Source of the DNA: a virus | Virus record (IMG/VR): IMGVR_UViG_3300017971_000554 | Span: 1 to 35,046 of that record | DNA: 35,046 nucleotides | Reading direction: 5' to 3' (one strand) | In this document: positions 3,322-30,980 of the stretch, piece by piece | Position numbering within the stretch: position 1 is the stretch's first letter | How the letters are laid out: each line of letters begins with the position of its first letter | Notes under the pieces: generated by a model | The model's database searches: none | Seen by the model: only the letters and a program-made list of their open reading frames with translations | What the model was told of the DNA's origin: nothing | Program-made: the position numbers and the translations under genes

Positions 3322-3375
3322 CTTCCTTGTAGGATCATAGCGGGTACACCGCAAGGAAGGCCCAGCGTACCCGCT
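3322..3375 (-). promoter_or_regulatory. Leader with two interleaved hairpins
   Basis: Stem A pairs AGCGGGTAC (3339-3347) with GTACCCGCT (3367-3375), nine perfect pairs. Stem B pairs CTTCCTTG (3322-3329) with CAAGGAAG (3352-3359), eight perfect pairs. The arms alternate, so the stems form a pseudoknot or two alternative folds. The segment lies just before the ribosome site of the gene at 3307. There is no T tract on the minus strand, so it is not a plain intrinsic terminator. Confidence 0.45.
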
Positions 3376-3381
3376 TTGTAT

Positions 3382-3615: not shown

Positions 3616-3645
3616 AATTAAAACCTCCCTTGTTTTTATTTAAGA

Positions 3646-3682
3646 CTTCTATTCCTGCCCGCTTATACGAGCAGGATAGAAG
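3646..3682 (-). promoter_or_regulatory. Hairpin between leftward genes
   Basis: CTTCTAT(T)CCTGC at 3646-3658 pairs with GCAGGATAGAAG at 3671-3682, with a single bulged base and a 12-base loop. It lies between the stop of the 247-residue gene and the ribosome site of the next leftward gene. No run of T follows on the minus strand, so RNA stabilisation or weak termination is more likely than strong termination. Confidence 0.45.
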
Positions 3683-3696
3683 CCCCCCTATACCTC

Positions 3697-4440
3697 TTAA
3701 ATAGCTGTTTTTAGCTCTTTTATAGCCTGTAATGCTTCGCCTCTTGTCTTATGCCCTTGGAAAGCTCCCAGCGTGTCAATGCTGCCGGAATTACGCATAA
3801 AACGAGCGCTATATAGCCGGGGTTCCGTGTCATGTTGTTCACTTGTAACAAAGAACCAGCCAGGCACGTCGTTATATTTACCGGCTTTCCCTTTAGTTTC
3901 AAGCTTGCAATTGAAAAACCGCATACTTGAACCACTAAAAAAGTAATAGCCCATACTTTTGTTAATATATTTTATTTCCCGCTTGTTTATATCGCCATTA
4001 ACTTCATAAGGCGTTTTTTGCCTTGCGTGTGCTTCTGGTTGATCCGTCAATATATAAAGTGTGTTGTTTTTGCCTTCTTCGCCTTTATATATCAGTTTAA
4101 GCCCTATTGCTTCGATTACTTTTTCAATACAACTGAAGCCACAAGCGCCGTCAAGCCTGACTCTTTTTTCTTTGCTGTTGTAAGTCATACCATAAAACCC
4201 GTGTTTATGATGTTTGTAGTTTTTCCCGTTCCAAGTGCTGCTTGCTTTCCTTTTAATCTTCATTAATTCAGGCTGGAACGCTGAAACAATGAACCGGGCA
4301 AGGACTGATCCTTTCATGTCATAGCCCCCGCCGTCTACTGATTCAACTTTCATGCCGTCCACGTATAACGAACAGATATTATATCCGTACGTGCCCCGTC
4401 CTCTTGATACGCTCCACTTAAAATTTAATACTTTTTCCAT
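3697..4440 (-). CDS. Hypothetical phage protein, possibly DUF7447-like C-terminus
   Basis: 247 residues, ATG preceded by GGGAG. The N-terminal part (FKWSVSRGRGTYGYNICSLY, then VDGGGYDMKGSVLARF) resembles a conserved phage protein I have seen in many tailed phages without assigned function. The C-terminal 90 residues (YFFSGSSMRFFNCKL, GWFFVTSEQHD, GAFQGHKTRGEALQAI) resemble the DUF7447 type; this is a memory-based guess. A central patch HHKHGFYGMTY is His-rich. It is the largest gene of the leftward operon and has no visible catalytic motif. Confidence 0.7.
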   Translation of the reverse strand: MEKVLNFKWSVSRGRGTYGYNICSLYVDGMKVESVDGGGYDMKGSVLARFIVSAFQPELMKIKRKASSTWNGKNYKHHKHGFYGMTYNSKEKRVRLDGACGFSCIEKVIEAIGLKLIYKGEEGKNNTLYILTDQPEAHARQKTPYEVNGDINKREIKYINKSMGYYFFSGSSMRFFNCKLETKGKAGKYNDVPGWFFVTSEQHDTEPRLYSARFMRNSGSIDTLGAFQGHKTRGEALQAIKELKTAI

Positions 4441-4461
4441 TGTTTTAAATCTCCCTTGTTT

Positions 4462-4650
4462 TTAGATTTGTTTGCTGATTGCTTCAATGCTCACCTCCTT
4501 TTGTAAATCTTTTATTGTGTTGATCCGATTAAATTGAAAAACCCTGTTAAGCAAACAATGGCTAAATTGTCTCAAGCTTACGCTCAAGCTTAACAGGGTT
4601 TCAGGTAATTTATGATTAAAAAATCTTGAGACTTTGTTTATTTTAGCCAT
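4462..4650 (-). CDS. Possible 62-residue leader-encoded protein (doubtful)
   Basis: ATG at 4650 lies only about ten bases after the expected start of transcription from the promoter at 4667-4695, with a poor ribosome site (AGG). The product (MAKINKVSRFF...KQI) is basic and has no known domain. The frame runs straight through a 14-bp terminator-like hairpin. The RNA structure may be the real function and the frame accidental. An unusually strong AAGGAGGTGA lies inside its 3' end. Confidence 0.3.
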   Translation of the reverse strand: MAKINKVSRFFNHKLPETLLSLSVSLRQFSHCLLNRVFQFNRINTIKDLQKEVSIEAISKQI

Positions 4651-4661
4651 TGTCTTAACCT
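4530..4661 (-). ncRNA. Structured leader or small RNA of the leftward operon
   Basis: From the predicted start near 4660 the minus-strand RNA would be about 125 nt, ending at a T5 tract. Stem A: AAACCCTGTTAAGC (4539-4552) with GCTTAACAGGGTTT (4588-4601), 14 perfect pairs. Stem B: ACAATGGCTAAA (4555-4566) with TTTAGCCATTGT (4642-4653), 12 pairs, plus TCTCAAG (4570-4576) with CTTGAGA (4625-4631). The arms of A and B alternate along the RNA. CTCAAGCTTA is also directly repeated at 4571 and 4585. It could act as an attenuator or as a free small RNA. Confidence 0.45.
4535..4601 (-). terminator. Terminator/attenuator in the leftward leader
   Basis: On the minus strand a perfect stem (GCTTAACAGGG with CCCTGTTAAGC) runs directly into TTTTT and then CAATTT. 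It lies about 60-120 bases downstream of the promoter and upstream of all recognised leftward genes, so it would limit their expression unless bypassed. Confidence 0.55.
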
Positions 4662-4666
4662 AGTAT

Positions 4667-4695
4667 ATATTAACACATATTCCGGTATTTGTCAA
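4667..4695 (-). promoter_or_regulatory. Sigma70 promoter, leftward
   Basis: On the minus strand a consensus -35 TTGACA (4695-4690) is followed by 17 bases and a -10 TAATAT (4672-4667). Transcription would start near 4660 and read the structured leader and the leftward genes. Confidence 0.7.
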
Positions 4696-4999
4696 GGCTT
4701 TTAAAAAAAAACTCATAATCATATATTAGCTCATAAATACCCTCTTTTATCGTCGGAAAACTAAAACATAATATAAACCTCTAAAATATACCTTGAAAAA
4801 TTAACCCTTGACAACTATAATATATTATGTTATATATGTATCAAATGACAAACACTAAACTATATAACAACCATTTATATATAAAACATTATAAGCTTGT
4901 ATGTTCTTTATGGCGTATTGTTGTTAAGCCTTTCGTATCTAGTATCTATGTATCTATAGTTCCGTAAGCTCTTACTCTTTCGTAACTACAGGATCGTAA
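4696..4999. other. AT-rich divergent intergenic control region
   Basis: No gene is seen here. The stretch 4700-4800 is very AT-rich. Three direct copies of GTATCTA lie at 4935-4941, 4942-4948 and 4950-4956 in the leader of the terminase gene, spaced like operator half-sites. No repressor gene is adjacent. The region is a plausible switch point between leftward and late transcription. Confidence 0.45.
4808..4836 (+). promoter_or_regulatory. Sigma70 promoter, rightward
   Basis: TTGACA at 4808-4813, a 17-base spacer, then TATATA at 4831-4836, in a very AT-rich tract. It would drive the small-terminase gene and the late operon. It is divergent from the leftward promoter, with about 110 bases between the two -35 boxes. 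Confidence 0.6.
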
Positions 5000-5509
5000 A
5001 TGTCTAAAACTAAAAATCACAAATCTAAAAAACTTCATTACTCACCTAAGCAAATCACTAAAAAGAAAATTAAAACTCATATCGATGAGAAAACTAAAAC
5101 CTTAGTTATCTCTTTACTCATTCAAGGCTTATCTCTTAGACACGTATCTCAAAAATTGACAGAGGCTAATATAAAACTAACGCATGAAGCTATTAGACAT
5201 ATCAAAATTAAGAACTTGGCTCACATTGACAAAGTTAAAAAGGAAAATAGAGAGATAATGCTTGAGACTGATAACGAAAAATATAAAAAGGTTGTCTCTG
5301 GGTTCCTGGACGTAACACGTAGAGCAGTTAACCATATCACCGACAAGAAGCTAGAAGAATCGAGCGGGGCAGCATTAGCCACTATTGCGGGGATCATGAC
5401 AGATAAACACGCTCTAGCTTCTGGAGGGCCTACGGATAGAGTCGAAATCAAGTTCAAGAGTAAAGGCGATATGCTGGATTATATCAGGAAGCGCAAGGAT
5501 AAAAAATGA
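5000..5509 (+). CDS. Putative terminase small subunit
   Basis: 169 residues: a very basic start, a helix-turn-helix-like segment at about residues 40-72 (LIQGLSLRHVSQKL...THEAIRHIKIK), a central helical region, and a C-terminal TDRVEIKFKSKGDMLDYI that resembles the tails of small terminases. Position supports it: it is the first late gene and lies two small genes before the large terminase. It would recognise the packaging site and load TerL. An alternative is another DNA-binding phage protein. Confidence 0.65.
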   Translation: MSKTKNHKSKKLHYSPKQITKKKIKTHIDEKTKTLVISLLIQGLSLRHVSQKLTEANIKLTHEAIRHIKIKNLAHIDKVKKENREIMLETDNEKYKKVVSGFLDVTRRAVNHITDKKLEESSGAALATIAGIMTDKHALASGGPTDRVEIKFKSKGDMLDYIRKRKDKK

Positions 5510-12773: not shown

Positions 12774-13283
12774 ATGAGGTTTTCGTTTAAAGGTTTTATG
12801 CAGAGTTTGCTGTTTGTGTTTGTCCTGATTGCTATTATGTTTATGGTAACTCAGGTAACAGAAGCGAGGCAGTATAATCGTTATATCCAGCTAAATGAAG
12901 AGGTTTTAGCAACGGATTGTACGACATACGCTTTGGCTCCTTCAACAAAGTCAATCAAAACAGTTGAATTGAGAGCAGGAAGGACTTCTGGTTCCTATCT
13001 TGTAAATCTCAGTACCTACGGGGCTTTTATTACTGACACAAGTTTTGGTACTGGAGCAATTGCGAACACGAAGATCAGAACTCAGGGTATGTATATTGGT
13101 CCAGCCTCAACAGCAGATGCAGCAGGAGTGGCAGCAAATGAGGGAAGTGCTGTAGCGGATAATGTTTTTCCTTTAACTACAGAGAAAGCGTATTACATAG
13201 TAGGCGGCGATGATGATACAAGCGCATTGACGAATGACATCAGAGTCTATGACGAATGGATTGATGGGAAATTGGCCCCTTAG
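12774..13283 (+). CDS. Secreted beta-rich protein of unknown function
   Basis: 169 residues, GGGAGGTGAT before ATG. The hydrophobic start (SLLFVFVLIAIMFMVTQVTEA, residues 11-31) is a signal peptide with a probable cut after VTEA. The mature part is Thr/Ala/Gly-rich and beta-like, with GGDDDTSALTNDIRVYDEWIDGKL at its end (shown in parts: DDDTSAL, IRVYDEWIDG). It resembles small virion decoration proteins but for the signal peptide. It is the last gene before the portal. Confidence 0.55.
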   Translation: MRFSFKGFMQSLLFVFVLIAIMFMVTQVTEARQYNRYIQLNEEVLATDCTTYALAPSTKSIKTVELRAGRTSGSYLVNLSTYGAFITDTSFGTGAIANTKIRTQGMYIGPASTADAAGVAANEGSAVADNVFPLTTEKAYYIVGGDDDTSALTNDIRVYDEWIDGKLAP

Positions 13284-13287
13284 TTCC

Positions 13288-13329
13288 ATTGCCGTAAACT
13301 ATCATTGCCGTAACTATAAACGTTACGGC
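13288..13329 (+). promoter_or_regulatory. Hairpin and direct repeat before the portal gene
   Basis: A perfect hairpin GCCGTAAC (13307-13314), loop TATAAAC, GTTACGGC (13322-13329), is preceded by a direct repeat of its left arm (ATTGCCGTAAACTA at 13288, ATTGCCGTAACTA at 13304). No T tract follows, so it is not an intrinsic terminator. It may be an operator, an RNA-processing site or a stabilising hairpin ahead of the structural genes. Confidence 0.5.
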
Positions 13330-13352
13330 TGAACTTATAAGGATAAAATAAA

Positions 13353-15365
13353 ATGGCTGACGAAAAAGAATTAACTCATAAAGAAGGCTTGGAAGAAGAA
13401 GCAAAAGCTTTTATTCTCGAAGCCTATAAGACTTATAAAGATAGACATGGGCTAGAGGAGAAGTGGGCTAAGTGGGATAAGCTATATAATAATATAACAA
13501 CCGAACAGTTCTATAAAGGGGCAGCAAATCTTTTCCCTCCAGAGACAAGACGTGCCTGTAAGACTCTTATAAATTTTGCTGATGAAGTTTTGTTTAGTCA
13601 AGCTACTCCATTTAAACTTAAAGGTGTTGGCGGGGATAGTGATAATAAGAAAGCTGAAATTCATACTATAGTTATGGATTGGCAACATAAGAAGATTTAT
13701 CTCCGCAGGAAGATACGAAAATTATTGGAGAGTCTTATAAAATACGGGTTTGTTTGGATAAAGGCTCCCTGGGCGTTGAAAGAAAAATATGTACTTGCTA
13801 GTTTAGCGGAGAGGGATAAGTTAAAGAAGAAAATCAATGGCGAAGATGTTGAAGGTATAAAGAAGTCGCTGAAGACTATGTTTGATAATATAGATTTTCA
13901 GGTTAAAGACCCCCGGACTATGTACTGGAATTATTATAAACCTTGGGATGAACAGGACGCTATTATTGAAAGAAATATGGTGAACTGGAATCACTTGAGA
14001 ATCCTTGAGAAAGCCGGAATATATTACGGGATAGACAGACTCAAAGATGTGAAGGGGAAAAAGGATAAAAGCGAATCTGAAAGCGTAACAGGCGATTGGT
14101 CTCATATTATGGAAATTACGGGACTATCGGCTGGTTATAAAATAGGTAAAGATAGTTTCGAGTTATTGGAATCTTGGTGTAATTTTGATTTAGATAAAGA
14201 CGGCTTGGAAGAAGAAAGCGTAATAACGTTGGCGAATCAGGAACACATTATAAGACTTGATCCGAATCCTTTTGATGAACAGGAAAAACCTTTCTTCTGG
14301 GTATGCTGGGACGCAATAGAAGGTACAAGCCTCGGTATGGGTGTACCGCAGTTAGCAGAGAAAGACCAGATTGCTCTTAACGATTTTACGAATCAGATAA
14401 TGGATAATATAACTCAGATACTTAACTGCATGAAAATAGTAGATGAGTTGGCTGAAATATCTGATACTCAATTAAAGTCAAGACCAAATGGTATTATTCG
14501 TTCTAAAGCTGGAGTCGATGCGGTTAAGTTTGAAAGACCGCCAAATACTTCTCAGGAAGGGCTTAAAGCGGTTGCTATGTCAAAAGAAAATATCCGGCAG
14601 GGATCAGGAGCAACAGTATCTCTCCAGGGTTTGCCTGCAAGATATGATACTACTGCTACGGAGTACACCAGACAGGGCAATGCTTCTGCAAGAGACGTTT
14701 TTGCGAAGTTGCGGGAAATAGAAGATTATGTTTTGATACCTTTTTATCGCAGGAATTACGCATACAACTTGCAGTTCCTTGAAAGAGAGAAATTTATTAA
14801 GATAGTTGGGCGTCCTGCTGCTGAAGAGTTTTTGGGAACAGACACTAATAAGAAAAGAAGTTTAAGAGATGCTCTAACAGCAGATTTAGATATTATTGCC
14901 TTGGGCGTAACCCAGATGGAGAATAAGGTTGTAAAGGGGCAGCAGTTGATAAACTTTTTAAATATTTCTTTGGGAGCGCCTCCGGGTATTGTCGATTTAC
15001 CTAAGTTGTATTCAAAGATATGGAAATATGTTGGCGATAATGACGATATAATTTTACCTCAGCCGAAAGATACTTTAATTTCTCCAGCAGACGAAAATCT
15101 TTTGATGCAACAGGGAATTGAGGTACACGCTAAGTTAATGGAAAATCATCCTTTCCACATGATAGAACATCAAAAATTACAATTACCAGAAGAATTACAG
15201 CAATTAAATTTTAGGCATATAATGGAACATCAGCAGTTAATGCAGATATTACAACAGGCAAGGACAGGCGCTCCTCCGCAGGAACAGCCTAGGGGTGGCC
15301 CCGAGAGAATTACTGAAGAGTCAGTTGCTAAAGTACCCGGAGCGCCCGCAGAGGAGATAGTATGA
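13353..15365 (+). CDS. Portal protein
   Basis: 670 residues, the length of podovirus-type portals. AAGGA lies upstream. The N-terminal third has ...AAKLFPPETRR-type residues (NLFPPETRRACKTL) and FADEVLFSQ; the centre has WDAIEGTSLGMGVPQLAEKDQ and NDFTNQIMDN, typical of portals that form the 12-fold DNA entry ring; then GSGATVSLQGLPARYD and the stem-like helices. The C-terminus (from residue 590) is Gln/Glu-rich with MMEHQQLMQ-like helices and a Pro-rich tail. It is separated from TerL by a 5.5-kb insert, which is unusual. The stop overlaps the next start (ATGA). Confidence 0.88.
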   Translation: MADEKELTHKEGLEEEAKAFILEAYKTYKDRHGLEEKWAKWDKLYNNITTEQFYKGAANLFPPETRRACKTLINFADEVLFSQATPFKLKGVGGDSDNKKAEIHTIVMDWQHKKIYLRRKIRKLLESLIKYGFVWIKAPWALKEKYVLASLAERDKLKKKINGEDVEGIKKSLKTMFDNIDFQVKDPRTMYWNYYKPWDEQDAIIERNMVNWNHLRILEKAGIYYGIDRLKDVKGKKDKSESESVTGDWSHIMEITGLSAGYKIGKDSFELLESWCNFDLDKDGLEEESVITLANQEHIIRLDPNPFDEQEKPFFWVCWDAIEGTSLGMGVPQLAEKDQIALNDFTNQIMDNITQILNCMKIVDELAEISDTQLKSRPNGIIRSKAGVDAVKFERPPNTSQEGLKAVAMSKENIRQGSGATVSLQGLPARYDTTATEYTRQGNASARDVFAKLREIEDYVLIPFYRRNYAYNLQFLEREKFIKIVGRPAAEEFLGTDTNKKRSLRDALTADLDIIALGVTQMENKVVKGQQLINFLNISLGAPPGIVDLPKLYSKIWKYVGDNDDIILPQPKDTLISPADENLLMQQGIEVHAKLMENHPFHMIEHQKLQLPEELQQLNFRHIMEHQQLMQILQQARTGAPPQEQPRGGPERITEESVAKVPGAPAEEIV

Positions 15366-23893: not shown

Positions 23894-24691
23894 ATGGCAA
23901 GACGGCGATCTATATTACTAGGTTTACGTGGGGCAGCAAGAGGAGCAATGCCTTGGGTACATCGTGCAATAATGCAAGAAGAACTTGCGAAACAGCAAGA
24001 ACAGAAAGCCATATCAGATTATTACAGAGATTTATTGGCTACAGGAGAACTTGAGGTTACTCCTCCAACGCCTATTGGGCCGATGGCGGGGCCTGTTCCC
24101 GTTGCTGAAGAAACTGGTTTGGCTGGATATCTCAGACCGGAAGCTCCGGCTCCGAGAGCGCCTACAGTTGAAGAAGAGTTTGATGTTATGAGGGCGATAT
24201 CCAGAGGACGAAGATTGCCTCCGGGAGTAAGAATTAAACCGCCGAAAATACCAAAGGGACTTGAGCCTGCTCAGTTTACTCATAAGGGCATTACATATAG
24301 CAGACCGACTAAAGAAGTCAAAAAGAGAACCGATCCCCGCTTTGAAGAAATGATGGACGTAGCGGGTAAGCATTGGGCTTCTTACAAAGAGGCGATTGAT
24401 AACGATGATGAACTCGGAATAGAATTATACAGCAAGAGGTTTGAATCAGCAATGGACGTTGCTGAAGGACTTTGGACAGCTTCTAATCCAGATATCCCTT
24501 TTGACAGATTTGAATTGGCAGAACTTGCGAAAGACCAGTCAGGGTGGCAGAAGTTCTGGGGATTGGAACCTAAAGGCAAAAAAGTCGCTGTTGTTGAAAA
24601 AGGCAAGAAATATGCAGTAGGCGACGAAGTAACTACGAAAAGAGGAACATTCAAATATTTAGGCAATGATAGATGGCAAAAAACCAAATAG
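23894..24691 (+). CDS. Hypothetical internal virion protein
   Basis: 265 residues, GGAGGTATAT upstream. A basic, partly amphipathic start (MARRRSILLGLRGAARGAMP) is followed by a Pro/Ala-rich linker (residues 55-90), a helical middle (RFEEMMDVAGKHWASYKEAI) and a beta-like end (VVEKGKKYAVGDEVTTKRGT, FKYLGNDRWQKTK). It overlaps the giant gene's start by 19 bases, so the two are probably made together. No enzymatic motif. Confidence 0.6.
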   Translation: MARRRSILLGLRGAARGAMPWVHRAIMQEELAKQQEQKAISDYYRDLLATGELEVTPPTPIGPMAGPVPVAEETGLAGYLRPEAPAPRAPTVEEEFDVMRAISRGRRLPPGVRIKPPKIPKGLEPAQFTHKGITYSRPTKEVKKRTDPRFEEMMDVAGKHWASYKEAIDNDDELGIELYSKRFESAMDVAEGLWTASNPDIPFDRFELAELAKDQSGWQKFWGLEPKGKKVAVVEKGKKYAVGDEVTTKRGTFKYLGNDRWQKTK

Positions 24692-27600
24692 TAACAACCA
24701 AGGAACTTTTCGGAGAAGAAGAGATACTCTCAACGGAAGAACTCTTCGGTGATGAAATTTTATCTACTGAAGAAGTTCTCGCCGATCCTATCATAGAAAA
24801 ACCTCCCGAACCATCAGTTCCAAAACAACTATTACAGAGAGCCTTAGAAAGAGTCGGGAAACTACGGGCTGAAAAAATAAGAGTGCCTAAGCCGAGAGTT
24901 CCGGCTGAAAGAAGAGTTGAGATTGGAGCGCCTGAGATTCCTGAAGAAGTTCCTAAACTTGAATGGACTCGTGCTGGGATTCCTACCGAAACAAGGTTTA
25001 TATCTCCTGAAATGATTGGAGAACCTTTAATTGATTATACAGCAAAACAAGAGAAGAAGTTGGCTGAGAGAGCAAGGAACCTTGCTACTAAGGAATTTGA
25101 AATGAAATATCCTCCACGTGCTGGAACGGGTTATCTTGTAACTCCACGTGAACGGAATATTATGTATATAGCTTCAGTTACTTCTATGAGGAATTTATTA
25201 CCGAGTGTTCTGGGTGGGATAACAAGGAAAGTTCCTGCTTTTGGGCGCTGGGTTATGAGGCATCCTGTAATGGGTAGATTGCTTGAACGTTCTCTTGAGG
25301 GCGGTATTGCAGGCGCATTGTCAAAGAGACCTGAAGACAAGTTTGCCAAAGAAGCAGTTGAAGGAGCAGTAACCCATACAGCTTGGTCTTTGGCTACAGA
25401 GATAGCTCCGGCATATATCAAATTAGCTTTACAGAAGGCGAAACCTGAAGTGGTTAAACCGCCGTTGGCGTTGCCTGCTCCGGGAAAGCCTCCGGTTCCA
25501 GAAGTAACAGTCCGGCCCCCTGTTGTTCCCAAACCCGCTCCATTAGCCTTAAAACCGCCTGTAAAGCCCATTCCTGCCGTTCCTGCTATTGGAGAGGTCA
25601 TATCAACTGAAGAGCTTGCTAAGCCTATTGTAGCCAAAATAAAGCCTATTGTACCCCCCGCCAAACCTACTTTGCCAGAGGTAGGAAAACCCCCTATTTT
25701 GAGGAGTCCTGAACAGGCGAAGACTTACGGGGAAAGCATAAAGGGTAATAAGGAGCTTATACAGGATTTGAAAGATGAAAGGGAAAGACTGCTTGGTGAG
25801 TCTATTGATATAGTGGATCGGGATAAGAAGATACAGATATTAACCAGAGCGCAACATTACAGGGAAGCAATTCAGGTTGCAGAAGTTAAGCCTCCAGTGG
25901 TTAAGCCCGTGCCTAAGCCTCCAGTTAAGCCAGTTGCAAAACCACCCGCAAAAGTACCAGCAAAACCTCCGGCTCCTGTTCCGGGAAGAAGAGAAGTAAC
26001 TATATTCCCGAAAGGAAAGAGAGATCTGATTACTGATATAAAGAAAGCTATTGTTGAAGTCCCGAAAAAAGTATCAGAGTTTGTCGGGTTTCAGATAGAC
26101 GGCGGGTTTAAAATAAAGAACACCAAGGAAGCTTTAGGGAAGTTTTTAAAAGAAGTTAAAAAGACTCCAGAGAAGATGGTTATTGGAGAGTTGAGAGTTC
26201 CTAGAAAACCAACTGCTCCAAGGAAAGCTTATATACCGCAAACCGATAAGCTTATGACATTAGAGAAGAGGGGTGGTTGGACTGATGGAGCTATGATGGA
26301 TTTAGAAGGCGAAGCTCCAAAGCCAGTTCAGAGTTTGCCAAAACTAAAGAAGCGTACTGTTCCTGATGAACATTTTGACGAAATTATCAAGAACGCAAAG
26401 AAGGCAGCAATCCTTCCAGTTGATAAATTAACGACAAATGCTGTTCCTGCTCCTGTTGGTAAAGTTAATCCGTTTGTGGTTCTGTTTAAGAAACCTGATG
26501 GGAAAATAATAGAATTAAATAAAGAGTATCACGATTACTTTGTAAATAAATATGGTTCAGATGTTGTTTTCAAGTTCCAGGATAAAGTTGATACTCCGAT
26601 ACTGGTAGAACACAAAGGGAAAGTTAAAGGCGTAGTTATGCCTAAAGAATATAAAGCAAAAGAGCAATACATAAAATTATTTGAAGAAGAAATTGAGGAA
26701 ACTCAAGCTAACCGGATCACTCAAATTATGCGTGGCGCTAAGACAATGGCTGAAGCCCAGCAACAGATAAAGAAAGATTTGAAGCTGGACATTCCTATTG
26801 CTGATTTGAAAGCTTTTGAACCGCAAGTTAAAGGTGGACTTCCCCCAGAAGCGCAGCAACATATAATAAAGGATTTAAGCGAGAAGATAAAAGGGAAGGA
26901 AAGAAAAGACGTAATGAATTTTGGCGTAAGCGAGGTTGCTGATATATCTCCAGAAGATTTGGTTGATAGCATGACTTTTTTCGATAGGGCAAAAGATTAT
27001 ACTTCTACGAAATATAAACAGCTTGGGGAAGCTATTCATTCTTTGGAGTTAGCTCAGAATTATTTATATTCTTATGCTGATTCTAAGCCTATTGCTGAAG
27101 GTGTTATTGACGCCCAGGTAAAGCAGTTAAGAAGTTCAAACGACGTGGATGAGGCAATCAGGATCATAAACAAAGCTACGAATAAAAGTAAGGTTGCAGA
27201 GATACTTGTTGAGGCTGATAAGAAAGAAAGACTGGACGGCGATATTGATAACGTGATATCGAAGGTAAATGCGGGCATTGAAAAGGGTACAATGACTCAG
27301 AAGGACAAAGAGGCTATCCGGGCTTTCGGATCATTGAGGAAAGTTGTCAAAGAGCAGATAATAAAAGACATACTTGATTCAAGAGTTGGTATAAGAATAA
27401 AGTCTGATGGTATAAGGTATGATCTTACTTATACAAATAATAAAGGTAAATTAGTTAAGAGAAGAGGCGTTACTGAAATTACTCTTGATAGATTACAGCG
27501 TATGCACAGGGACGTTAAAATAACAGACCAGAACGAGAGAGTTAAGTTTAGGCACTTAGACCCGAATACCGGAAAGTATGTTACAAGAACAGAGTACATA

Positions 27601-29262
27601 AAAGACTATGACGAAGTAACTAAAATACTTGGGAAAGAAACTAAAGAGTTGATTAATGAAACTTTGCCTTATGTGAACTGGATTCCTCACAACAGGATTC
27701 ATGGTAAGTTCTGGGTTGAAGCATACGAACCGCACGCAACAGGAGAAGGAGAAACGAAAATATTCTCGGCCCGTGTACCCAATAAAGTATGGGCTGATAA
27801 GATGCAGGCAAAAATAAAACAGAGTTTTCCTTCTGCTAGGGTATTGGTTAAACCTCATAGTCTCAAAATGAAGTATATGCCTTCCTTCGGTAGCATGGTT
27901 GAAGTATCTCATTACCTTCATAACGCTGGTGTTGATCCGAGGTCTGAAGCTGGACAGAAGATAATAAATGCTTACCGCTCAATGTCAGGACTTATGAGCA
28001 GTTTGATTCATTCTCAGAACCTTGCTGGTTATAGAGTTGATTTTGACGGGCTTGTTGAGGGAATGGAGAGGAAAGCGACGGCAGCAGTAAACAGAGGATT
28101 CCGGCAGGAGATAAAAGATTTAACGGGTCTTACTAAAGAGATAAAAGATGATTTCAGATATAATACGGCGACAAAATATATCAATGCTTTATCTTCTGTT
28201 ACTGAAGGTAATGTTGTCTTAGACGCAGCAAAAGCATTGACTTATTTCTGGGTGCTTGCGAATAAGACAACTTATGTTGTGCAGAATTTAACTGAGTCTT
28301 TGTGGGCTTTGGCAAGAGTTCCGAAGTTAAATAAACCTTTTAAGTTTATGACTCCTTTACCCAGAGAGTATAAAGTTCTTGTTGATAAGGCAAGAAATGA
28401 AGGAATAATCCGTCCGTTCTATGGAGAGCAATTAACCGGAAGAGGATTGTTGCATAATATAAATATACTTGGCAACTGGTCTGAGAATGAAAGCAGTAAG
28501 AGAGTATTTGAGATAGGATTGAGGGTTGCAAGAGATAAAGGATTGACTGGAGACGAGGCATACCGGGAAGCGTACCAGTTCTTGTTTAACGTAGGTAAGC
28601 CTTATTACAGGAACCCTAATACTATAGTAGCATTGCTGGGTAGAGAAGGTACAGTAGTAAATAAGTATGGATTTATATTTTTACGCTGGGTACTGGATTG
28701 GATAAATAAGTTTGCCCGTGCGCCTGTAAGTACGAAAATAAAAACAATGCTTGTCTGGTTCCTGCTTGGTGGAGCTGGAACTTTACCTTTCGGAAGAAAG
28801 ATACTTCATAAGACTGGACTTGTTGATATCAGGAAAGACCCGAAGAGATTAACCTTGACTGAAAAGTTTATGCTTGGAGGACTCCCTGGAACGATAGGTG
28901 TTTCTTCTAGGTTCCTGATCCCGATGTTTTATAAAGGGCTGGGAGATGTGAGAACCGGAGTTGAAAGAGGTTTTAATATTCTTAGTAGCCAGATAAAAAG
29001 AGGTAAAGTTGGTTGGGGAAAATATGGATTGATAGGCGCTCTAGGCGCTCTCCCTCTTGGTGGTTTCCAGTACCCGATAAGTGGTATTACGAAAGTGAAA
29101 AAAGGCATAGTTGAAGTAAGAGGAGAGAAGAAGAAAGTTGTTTATAAACCTAAGACTCCCTGGGCTAAGTTCATAACAGGAGTTGGCTTAACTCCGTTTG
29201 AATTGAGTCAGATTTATGCACAGAAAAAAGAGCCGAGACCAAAACCGAAAGTCTTCAGATAA
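24673..29262 (+). CDS. Giant internal/ejection protein, polyvalent-protein-like
   Basis: 1529 residues, the largest gene. Residues 8-41 hold three copies of a motif (TTKELFGEEEIL, STEELFGDEIL, STEEVLADPII); ISTEEL recurs near 310. Residues 255-450 are Pro/Lys/Val-rich linker (KPPVPEV, KPVAKPPAKVPAKPP). The C-terminal half contains ALTYFWVLANKTTYVVQNLTESLWAL (in parts), GLTGDEAYREAYQFLFN and FLRWVLDWINKFARAP, resembling large-polyvalent-protein-associated domains of ejected phage proteins. Hydrophobic segments near 1357-1377 and 1440-1460 could insert into the host membrane. It would be injected with the DNA. No catalytic motif recognised. Confidence 0.7.
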   Translation: MAKNQIVTTKELFGEEEILSTEELFGDEILSTEEVLADPIIEKPPEPSVPKQLLQRALERVGKLRAEKIRVPKPRVPAERRVEIGAPEIPEEVPKLEWTRAGIPTETRFISPEMIGEPLIDYTAKQEKKLAERARNLATKEFEMKYPPRAGTGYLVTPRERNIMYIASVTSMRNLLPSVLGGITRKVPAFGRWVMRHPVMGRLLERSLEGGIAGALSKRPEDKFAKEAVEGAVTHTAWSLATEIAPAYIKLALQKAKPEVVKPPLALPAPGKPPVPEVTVRPPVVPKPAPLALKPPVKPIPAVPAIGEVISTEELAKPIVAKIKPIVPPAKPTLPEVGKPPILRSPEQAKTYGESIKGNKELIQDLKDERERLLGESIDIVDRDKKIQILTRAQHYREAIQVAEVKPPVVKPVPKPPVKPVAKPPAKVPAKPPAPVPGRREVTIFPKGKRDLITDIKKAIVEVPKKVSEFVGFQIDGGFKIKNTKEALGKFLKEVKKTPEKMVIGELRVPRKPTAPRKAYIPQTDKLMTLEKRGGWTDGAMMDLEGEAPKPVQSLPKLKKRTVPDEHFDEIIKNAKKAAILPVDKLTTNAVPAPVGKVNPFVVLFKKPDGKIIELNKEYHDYFVNKYGSDVVFKFQDKVDTPILVEHKGKVKGVVMPKEYKAKEQYIKLFEEEIEETQANRITQIMRGAKTMAEAQQQIKKDLKLDIPIADLKAFEPQVKGGLPPEAQQHIIKDLSEKIKGKERKDVMNFGVSEVADISPEDLVDSMTFFDRAKDYTSTKYKQLGEAIHSLELAQNYLYSYADSKPIAEGVIDAQVKQLRSSNDVDEAIRIINKATNKSKVAEILVEADKKERLDGDIDNVISKVNAGIEKGTMTQKDKEAIRAFGSLRKVVKEQIIKDILDSRVGIRIKSDGIRYDLTYTNNKGKLVKRRGVTEITLDRLQRMHRDVKITDQNERVKFRHLDPNTGKYVTRTEYIKDYDEVTKILGKETKELINETLPYVNWIPHNRIHGKFWVEAYEPHATGEGETKIFSARVPNKVWADKMQAKIKQSFPSARVLVKPHSLKMKYMPSFGSMVEVSHYLHNAGVDPRSEAGQKIINAYRSMSGLMSSLIHSQNLAGYRVDFDGLVEGMERKATAAVNRGFRQEIKDLTGLTKEIKDDFRYNTATKYINALSSVTEGNVVLDAAKALTYFWVLANKTTYVVQNLTESLWALARVPKLNKPFKFMTPLPREYKVLVDKARNEGIIRPFYGEQLTGRGLLHNINILGNWSENESSKRVFEIGLRVARDKGLTGDEAYREAYQFLFNVGKPYYRNPNTIVALLGREGTVVNKYGFIFLRWVLDWINKFARAPVSTKIKTMLVWFLLGGAGTLPFGRKILHKTGLVDIRKDPKRLTLTEKFMLGGLPGTIGVSSRFLIPMFYKGLGDVRTGVERGFNILSSQIKRGKVGWGKYGLIGALGALPLGGFQYPISGITKVKKGIVEVRGEKKKVVYKPKTPWAKFITGVGLTPFELSQIYAQKKEPRPKPKVFR

Positions 29263-29293
29263 TTAGCGCCTTCCTTGAATTTTTAAATACCCC

Positions 29294-29322
29294 TTGATAA
29301 ATTCCTGAATCTATGTTATAAT
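29294..29322 (+). promoter_or_regulatory. Strong sigma70 promoter
   Basis: TTGATA at 29294-29299, a 17-base spacer and a perfect TATAAT at 29317-29322. Transcription would begin near 29329 and read a non-coding segment with two terminators before the second early gene block. It is the best promoter of the window. Confidence 0.85.
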
Positions 29323-29407
29323 TCAACATATTGGAAAAATGAATCAGATATAGCGGAGCGCAGAAGTGAAACTGGCAAATAAATCGAATTTAGCAAAAAA
29401 TTGTGAG

Positions 29408-29443
29408 AGACAGGAGGCAATTGCAATCTTCCTGTCTTTTTTT
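29408..29443 (+). terminator. Intrinsic terminator 1 of the leader
   Basis: AGACAGGA (29408-29415) pairs with TCCTGTCT (29430-29437) and is followed by T7; the loop contains a further GCAATTGC palindrome. It would end a short RNA of about 115 nt from the promoter at 29294. Confidence 0.85.
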
Positions 29444-29455
29444 ATTGCAGGGAGT

Positions 29456-29517
29456 AACGGTATGGGTTCCGGGAATGCGCTCCGCAAAGCCAGTTCCGGT
29501 CCCATGCCGTTTTTTTT
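29456..29517 (+). terminator. Intrinsic terminator 2 of the leader
   Basis: AACGGTATGGG (29456-29466) pairs with CCCATGCCGTT (29501-29511, one G-U), with an inner CCGG(G)AA/TTCCGG stem and an 18-base loop, followed by T8. A ribosome site AAGGAGAT comes immediately after. The loop is complementary to the 5' part of the same transcript, which suggests regulation of read-through. Confidence 0.85.
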
Positions 29518-29530
29518 ATAAGGAGATATT

Positions 29531-29665
29531 ATGGTTAATTACAAAACTTCATTTGACCGCAAAAAAAAGGGAACTCAGAAGCCTAAGAAATTCAAGCTAT
29601 CAGAAATAACAAAGATAATATGGGGTTATCGAAAGGCGACACCTATTGTTGAAAGGAGAATATAA
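29531..29665 (+). CDS. 44-residue basic micro-protein
   Basis: AAGGAGAT lies seven bases before the ATG. The product is Lys-rich (DRKKKGTQKPKKFK) and ends in a short helical part (SEITKIIWGYRKATPIVERR). It is the first gene after the double terminator. The stop directly abuts the next ATG. Possibly a nucleic-acid-binding peptide; no family recognised. Confidence 0.6.
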   Translation: MVNYKTSFDRKKKGTQKPKKFKLSEITKIIWGYRKATPIVERRI

Positions 29666-30537: not shown

Positions 30538-30980
30538 TGGAAAAATATGTATGTAATTTAGAACTGGCAAAGAAACTTAAAGAGTTGGGTGTGAACCGCA
30601 AGGAAGAATGTGGCTTTTATTGGCGGTGTGCTTCGCAATTAAATCCTGATTGGGTACTATTATATAAAACATCTAAAATGTTTGATAGGAATAGCATATA
30701 TTACTCTGCCTTTTCCGTAGGCGAATTAGGGGGAATGTTGCCATCTTATATGAAGCCCATTGGTATAATTGATGACAGCATTGAGAGAATAAAAACTGAA
30801 AGAAATGGCGGACACTATGTTTGTTACTATAAGCAAATAAAAAAAGAAGGAAATTCCACGATTACTAAAATAATAGAGTTTTCAGAACCTTTCGAAGCAA
30901 ACGCCAGAGCAAAAATGCTGATATATCTTATTGAGAATAAATTGATTGAGGTAAAAAATGGAACACTTCAGGGATCATAA
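30537..30980 (+). CDS. Conserved phage protein of unknown function
   Basis: 147 residues. CNLELAKKLKELGVNRKEE, FYWRC, YSAFSVGELGGMLPSYM and ANARAKMLIYLIENKLIEV form a pattern found in many tailed phages near replication genes (helical start, ELGxxLP, AxAxMLIYLIE). No function known to me. Aromatic-rich FYW near residue 27 could be a binding surface. It overlaps the next gene by 23 bases. Confidence 0.7.
   Translation: MEKYVCNLELAKKLKELGVNRKEECGFYWRCASQLNPDWVLLYKTSKMFDRNSIYYSAFSVGELGGMLPSYMKPIGIIDDSIERIKTERNGGHYVCYYKQIKKEGNSTITKIIEFSEPFEANARAKMLIYLIENKLIEVKNGTLQGS

Follow-up and report, generated by a model that had tools for sequence, protein, structure and literature searches.

The window analysed here is a complete virus record of 35,046 bases with a G+C content of 38%. 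Gene matches in the window included a terminase, a podovirus-like portal/head-tail adaptor, a major head protein, a DnaQ-like exonuclease, a replication initiator, a RuvC-like resolvase and a DNA methyltransferase. The portal protein was 41-58% identical to those of rumen and other viral contigs and of a contig of an Elusimicrobia genome, and terminase relatives at about 50% identity were found in two more genomes of the same phylum. Because portal and terminase relatives occur in genomes of that phylum, an Elusimicrobiota host is likely.

The last structural gene ends at 29262 and the second early block begins at 29531, while a leftward operon spans about 4650 down to 2929. The last structural gene is probably the one at 24673-29262, encoding a 1529-aa protein that matched neither Pfam nor PHROGs and for which the viral contigs searched yielded no relative. 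The second early block opens with a 44-aa gene, followed by the gene for a 100-aa Cys-rich protein and then that for the DnaQ-like exonuclease (phrog_192). Rightward and leftward operons converge at a bidirectional terminator (2868-2933; 22-nt arms, 20-nt loop), and two strong minus-strand hairpins of -24 and -29 kcal/mol lie between leftward-operon genes at 3336-3378 and 3642-3686, respectively. The very start of the record (1-140) consists of 12-base tandem repeats (CAGCCAGTTGGA and variants) containing GCCAGTT, the 7-mer called B2 below; these repeats probably represent the repetitive end of a coding sequence at which the assembly broke.

Two leaders complementary to the loops of predicted terminators

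We studied the plus-strand leader between the last structural gene and the second early block (leader 1, 29294-29530), for which a preliminary description had proposed a near-consensus promoter followed by two terminators. In the consensus scan, promoter P1 scored 11/12, a value shared by one other site in the window, and carried an extended -10 TG, in agreement with that proposal; its RNA would start at about 29329. Both terminators were credible by folding. The loop of terminator 2 had been reported to be complementary to the 5′ part of the leader over 9 and 5 bp. We found that the complementarity is longer, comprising 10 bp between blocks A1 and B1 and 7 bp between blocks A2 and B2 (Table 1), and that the two contacts indeed lie in swapped, pseudoknotted order. 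An RNA ending at predicted terminator 1 would carry both A blocks.

We identified a second case, absent from the preliminary description, in the leader of the leftward operon on the minus strand (leader 2, 4537-4694), which shows the same layout. It was first spotted when the divergent region was read, and was then confirmed by a blind hairpin scan. The loop reads CTTGAGAC-AA-TTTAGCCATTGT, so that its blocks stand in antisense order, unlike those of leader 1, and the sequences of the two leaders are unrelated. Leader 2 is without an upstream terminator that could yield a short RNA carrying only the A blocks, and a short RNA of this kind is plausible for leader 1 only. The candidate promoter P2 is weak in its -10 element, which counts against attenuation at leader 2; other minus-strand promoter candidates were found by the consensus scan at 4814-4851. 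The B1′ region (4553-4566) further shows 86% complementarity to the region where the downstream 247-aa gene starts (AAACAATGGAAAAA, 4432-4445), a start site on which the loop might also act.

Table 1. Positions of the predicted elements in the two leaders, numbered along the window
Feature	Positions	Strand	Description	Basis
Promoter P1	29294-29322	+	TTGATA 29294-29299, 17-nt spacer, extended -10 TG-N-TATAAT (TATAAT 29317-29322)	consensus scan, 11/12
Block A1	29353-29362	+	GCGGAGCGCA; includes GGAG of the candidate 51-codon frame	exact complement of B1
Candidate 51-codon frame	29366-29521	+	GTG start; open across both terminators; stop overlaps the next gene's ribosome site	translation
Block A2	29370-29376	+	AACTGGC	exact complement of B2
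Terminator 1	29405-29443	+	13-bp stem 29405-29440, U-tract 29437-29443	folding
Terminator 2	29456-29517	+	outer stem 29456-29466/29501-29511, inner stem 29469-29474/29494-29499, T8 29510-29517	folding, -32.4 kcal/mol
Block B1	29476-29485	+	TGCGCTCCGC, in terminator 2 loop	pairs with A1, 10 bp
Block B2	29489-29495	+	GCCAGTT, in terminator 2 loop	pairs with A2, 7 bp
First gene behind terminator 2	29531-29665	+	44 aa	ORF; coding-like codon score
Candidate promoter P2	4666-4694	-	TTGACA 4694-4689, 17-nt spacer, TGt-TAATAT (4671-4666)	read from sequence; -10 only 4/6
Block A1′	4642-4653	-	ACAATGGCTAAA; contains ATG 4650 of the candidate 62-codon frame	exact complement of B1′, 12 bp
Candidate 62-codon frame	4462-4650	-	runs through the hairpin; stops shortly ahead of the 247-aa gene's ribosome site	
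Block A2′	4625-4632	-	GTCTCAAG	exact complement of B2′, 8 bp
Terminator-like hairpin	4537-4602	-	perfect 14-bp stem 4601-4588/4552-4539, 35-nt loop, T5 4541-4537	predicted
Block B2′	4569-4576	-	CTTGAGAC, in the loop	pairs with A2′
Block B1′	4555-4566	-	TTTAGCCATTGT, in the loop	pairs with A1′

The stretch of about 190 nt behind P1 had been described as free of genes. This needs qualifying, since a 51-codon GTG frame stays open across both terminators; a 62-codon frame likewise runs through the leader 2 hairpin. Shuffling left the two frames open in 9% and 1.4% of cases, respectively. Their codon scores were non-coding-like (-0.11 and -0.15, where 95% of in-frame stretches from coding genes scored above 0.02), and we therefore rejected them as ordinary protein-coding genes and kept them as possible leader frames. 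As for their start sites, A1 and A2 flank GTG 29366, with the GGAG well spaced, and A1′ covers ATG 4650; if its RNA begins near 4660, leader 2 may be without a Shine-Dalgarno site.

The complementarity is well above chance in this genome

To find out how rare such complementarity is, we blindly scanned all 225 hairpins of the window with a loop of 10-50 nt. The scan ranked leader 2 first (score 20) and leader 1 second (score 17), and the next hairpin scored 14. When leader 1 and its loop were considered alone, a 10-nt match arose in 0.06% of 5000 dinucleotide shuffles and the 10+7 combination in none of the 5000. Across all 225 hairpins, however, a score of at least 17 was reached somewhere in 16 of 300 sets with shuffled leaders (about 5%), so that leader 1 by itself is only moderately surprising. 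A score of 20 did not occur in the 300 sets, and two hairpins scoring at least 17 occurred in one of them; the two cases together therefore make the pattern convincing. The window itself holds just three terminator-like long-loop hairpins. We then compared 66 viral records of less than 48% G+C (780 kb, with the window included and some records overlapping), in which 49 terminator-like long-loop hairpins were identified, and only those of leaders 1 and 2 scored above 14. Altogether, the pairing of leader and loop is well above chance, in one genome.

Searches for RNA families and homologous leaders

The covariance models of Rfam 15 gave no match at the gathering threshold across the window, and matches in 29200-29600 and 4430-4870 were at chance level, with neither isrK nor C4 antisense RNA among them; the preliminary description had likewise recognised no known RNA family. 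No convincing homologue of the leaders was obtained by exact 24-mer and inverted-pattern scans of viral contigs, or by a blastn search of phage and plasmid records. The inverted pattern GCGGAGCGC-N100-130-GCGCTCCGC was found in 90 viral stretches, nearly all of them GC-rich, and none had a convincing second block and a terminator placed alike. Pattern searches of 341 genomes from the phylum of the relatives also revealed no convincing leader, and in one of these searches the matches did not exceed those of the reversed-pattern control.

We also looked for the same locus in the protein relatives (portal 41-58% identical), whose records stop before the region or differ in layout; none of their terminator-like hairpins scored above 14. 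A search for the locus through the adjacent 1529-aa and 100-aa proteins found no relatives. In one relative (L062), rightward genes, among them one coding for 367 aa, occupy the stretch that separates the structural genes from the early block (12791-15016), a place where the window has only the leader; these genes are possibly a lysogeny module. Two further ideas were rejected: a copy of AACTGGCAAA at 30562, considered as another P4-like target downstream, was not beyond chance, and the core-site letters expected of an integron attC-like site were, as judged by eye, wrongly oriented in hairpin 2.

Computed folding of the growing transcripts

To follow the competition between the leader-loop helix and the terminator during synthesis, the RNA was folded at each successive length as secondary structure only, without pseudoknots and without kinetics, leader 2 being run from 4665. 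In leader 1, the probability of A1:B1 was about 1.0 until the RNA was exposed to 29506, and terminator 2 took over at 29507-29508; when the A blocks were masked, terminator 2 already formed at 29503. Similarly, the A:B probability in leader 2 was about 1.0 until exposure to 4543 and flipped to the terminator at 4542-4540, while with masked A blocks the terminator already formed at 4546. The RNA hybrid held by the polymerase is usually 9-10 nt long. Assuming this length, the window of switching would correspond to about the RNA exposed when the polymerase stands on or just past the U-tract.

In the full-length RNAs, terminator 2 was more stable than the nested alternative by 7.6 kcal/mol, and the leader 2 terminator was favoured by about 2.2 kcal/mol. 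With the terminator preferred in either RNA once it is complete, the predicted switch depends on timing. The earlier proposal that pairing could hold off terminator 2 is thus supported by the computed course of synthesis, within two limits: the balance in the finished RNA, and a pseudoknot that could spare the stem. A pseudoknot of this kind could let A:B coexist with the terminator stem, and in leader 1 the 11-bp basal stem need not break. Because the leader 1 contacts are in swapped order, the two together probably could not form without strain.

A possible attenuation mechanism and its alternatives

Based on the above results, we tentatively propose, at somewhat less than an even chance, that leaders 1 and 2 both act as transcription attenuators and share one design within this phage. 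As in other attenuators, each leader stands ahead of an operon and contains a predicted intrinsic terminator, and the computation identified an alternative helix that competes with this terminator during synthesis. In the proposed mechanism, the 5′ leader block A would pair with block B in the apical loop of the downstream terminator. Since synthesis of B precedes that of the terminator's 3′ arm, an unoccupied A would capture B first and hold back the terminator at the time when RNA polymerase stands on the U-tract, so that read-through into the operon would be favoured. If A were occupied when B emerges, the terminator would fold several bases earlier and transcription would stop. The order found by folding, in which the leader-loop helix comes first and yields in the last exposed bases, or earlier if A is occupied, supports attenuation. 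The occupant of A might be a ribosome at a start site overlapping A, or another RNA, such as another copy of the same RNA. A ribosome is a candidate because A1 and A2 flank a GTG with a GGAG, A1′ covers an ATG, and the frames reach the next ribosome site, although their codon usage looks non-coding and leader 2 may lack a Shine-Dalgarno site. We saw no good promoter in the stretches leading from the terminators to the first genes of either operon, and operon expression therefore appears to need read-through. Counting against the model are its basis in a single genome with no homologous leader found, the non-coding-like codon usage of the candidate frames, the preference of the full-length RNAs for the terminator, and the probable strain between the leader 1 contacts. 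We infer that the leader RNAs are made and that read-through is regulated.

The same pairing could also work between molecules. A prematurely ended RNA with A or B, in the style of P4 CI or Gifsy-1 IsrK, would pair with the partner block of a transcript that is longer or still being made, and alter its termination or translation. The RNA ended at terminator 1 would be suited to this role through its two A blocks, the pairing of A with an intact terminator 2 hairpin was computed at about -15 kcal/mol net before initiation costs, and IsrK offers a precedent in which, with one promoter and terminator read-through, the short form acts on the long one (PMC4825925). However, leader 2 has no upstream terminator to give such a short RNA and the phage shows no recognised immunity module, and we consider feedback in trans rather unlikely. 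Still less probable, in our view, is that the loop, by pairing, covers the ribosome site of the 51- or 62-codon frame and silences its translation, to which that of the next gene would be coupled, with read-through beside the point. The position of the A blocks at the two start codons fits such masking, as do the frames, which cross the terminators and end at the following gene's ribosome site; the non-coding-like codon scores and the possible lack of a Shine-Dalgarno site in leader 2, depending on its 5′ end, argue against it.

The remaining alternatives dispense with RNA switching. That ordinary terminators close a late operon and are complementary to the leaders by chance is improbable to a similar degree: terminators are common after late operons, and one score of 17 arises somewhere in the genome in 5% of shuffles, but here two cases coincide, both in leaders and both with strong terminator-like hairpins, at a joint chance of about 0.3% before position is considered, and none of the 47 other terminator-like hairpins shows the pattern. 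DNA-level inverted motifs, either protein-binding sites or an origin element, might mimic RNA pairing; GCGGAGCGC is internally dyad-symmetric and the leftward leader adjoins the AT-rich divergent region (4650-5000). The two cases, however, have no common motif and differ in order and spacing, yet they have in common the RNA layout of leader and terminator loop, which makes such motifs a very remote prospect.

Comparison with known systems and implications

We compared the proposed attenuators with known systems of RNA control. In classical attenuators and riboswitch expression platforms, the antiterminator usually takes an arm of the terminator stem. The phage leaders resemble them in that an early-made segment would form an antiterminator helix against an intrinsic terminator, which is freed when that segment is occupied; by calculation, however, the phage leaders take the terminator loop, not the stem. 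The C4 antisense RNA of P1 and P7 is produced by processing and acts on the translation of ant. It has in common with the phage leaders two short pairing blocks in one phage transcript that overlap a start region, and differs from them in its processing and its action on ant, the leaders having no Rfam match. We found no description of a loop-targeted antiterminator in a phage leader in the open-access literature.

In satellite phage P4, the CI RNA pairs with seqA and seqC, causing premature termination (PMC4825925). Both there and here, complementary stretches lie in an early phage leader and their pairing is tied, here by prediction, to transcription termination. P4, however, uses a processed RNA with targets on both sides and promotes termination, whereas in this phage it is the loop of the terminator that provides the complementary stretch, and pairing in cis is predicted to delay termination. 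By layout, the closest known system appears to be the isrK-orf45-anrP locus of the Salmonella prophage Gifsy-1, where a terminated small RNA interacts with its own read-through transcript and two mutually exclusive folds exist (PMC4825925). The likeness extends to one promoter and a terminator with partial read-through (both predicted on the phage side), a small frame between the leader and the first gene (a candidate frame in the phage), complementarity of the leader to a stretch further along its own transcript (10+7 bp and 12+8 bp in the phage) and two mutually exclusive folds, which were computed for the phage. In contrast, IsrK pairs with about 30 nt of orf45 while the phage leaders would pair with a terminator loop, its proven effect is on translation (PMC4825925), no sequence or Rfam match to it was found in the phage, and leader 2 is without a separate short RNA.

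A bolder and distinctly unlikely version of the attenuation model is that the phage runs its two non-structural operons by a general RNA device hitherto undescribed, in which the 5′ end of the transcript reads the loop of its own terminator, read-through is the default, and the switch is tripped by terminated copies, so that accumulating transcripts would close the operon. The attenuation model itself sharply predicts the position of the polymerase at the moment of switching. If it is true, the switch would be worked through the loop of the terminator, not its stem, and this in two unrelated sequences of one genome, which would suggest that the design was selected and not merely inherited. To our knowledge, regulation in uncultured phages is almost unknown, and relatives of this phage are found in Elusimicrobiota genomes. 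Complementarity between a leader and a terminator loop would, if the model holds, provide a simple, searchable signature for RNA-controlled operons in uncultured phages.
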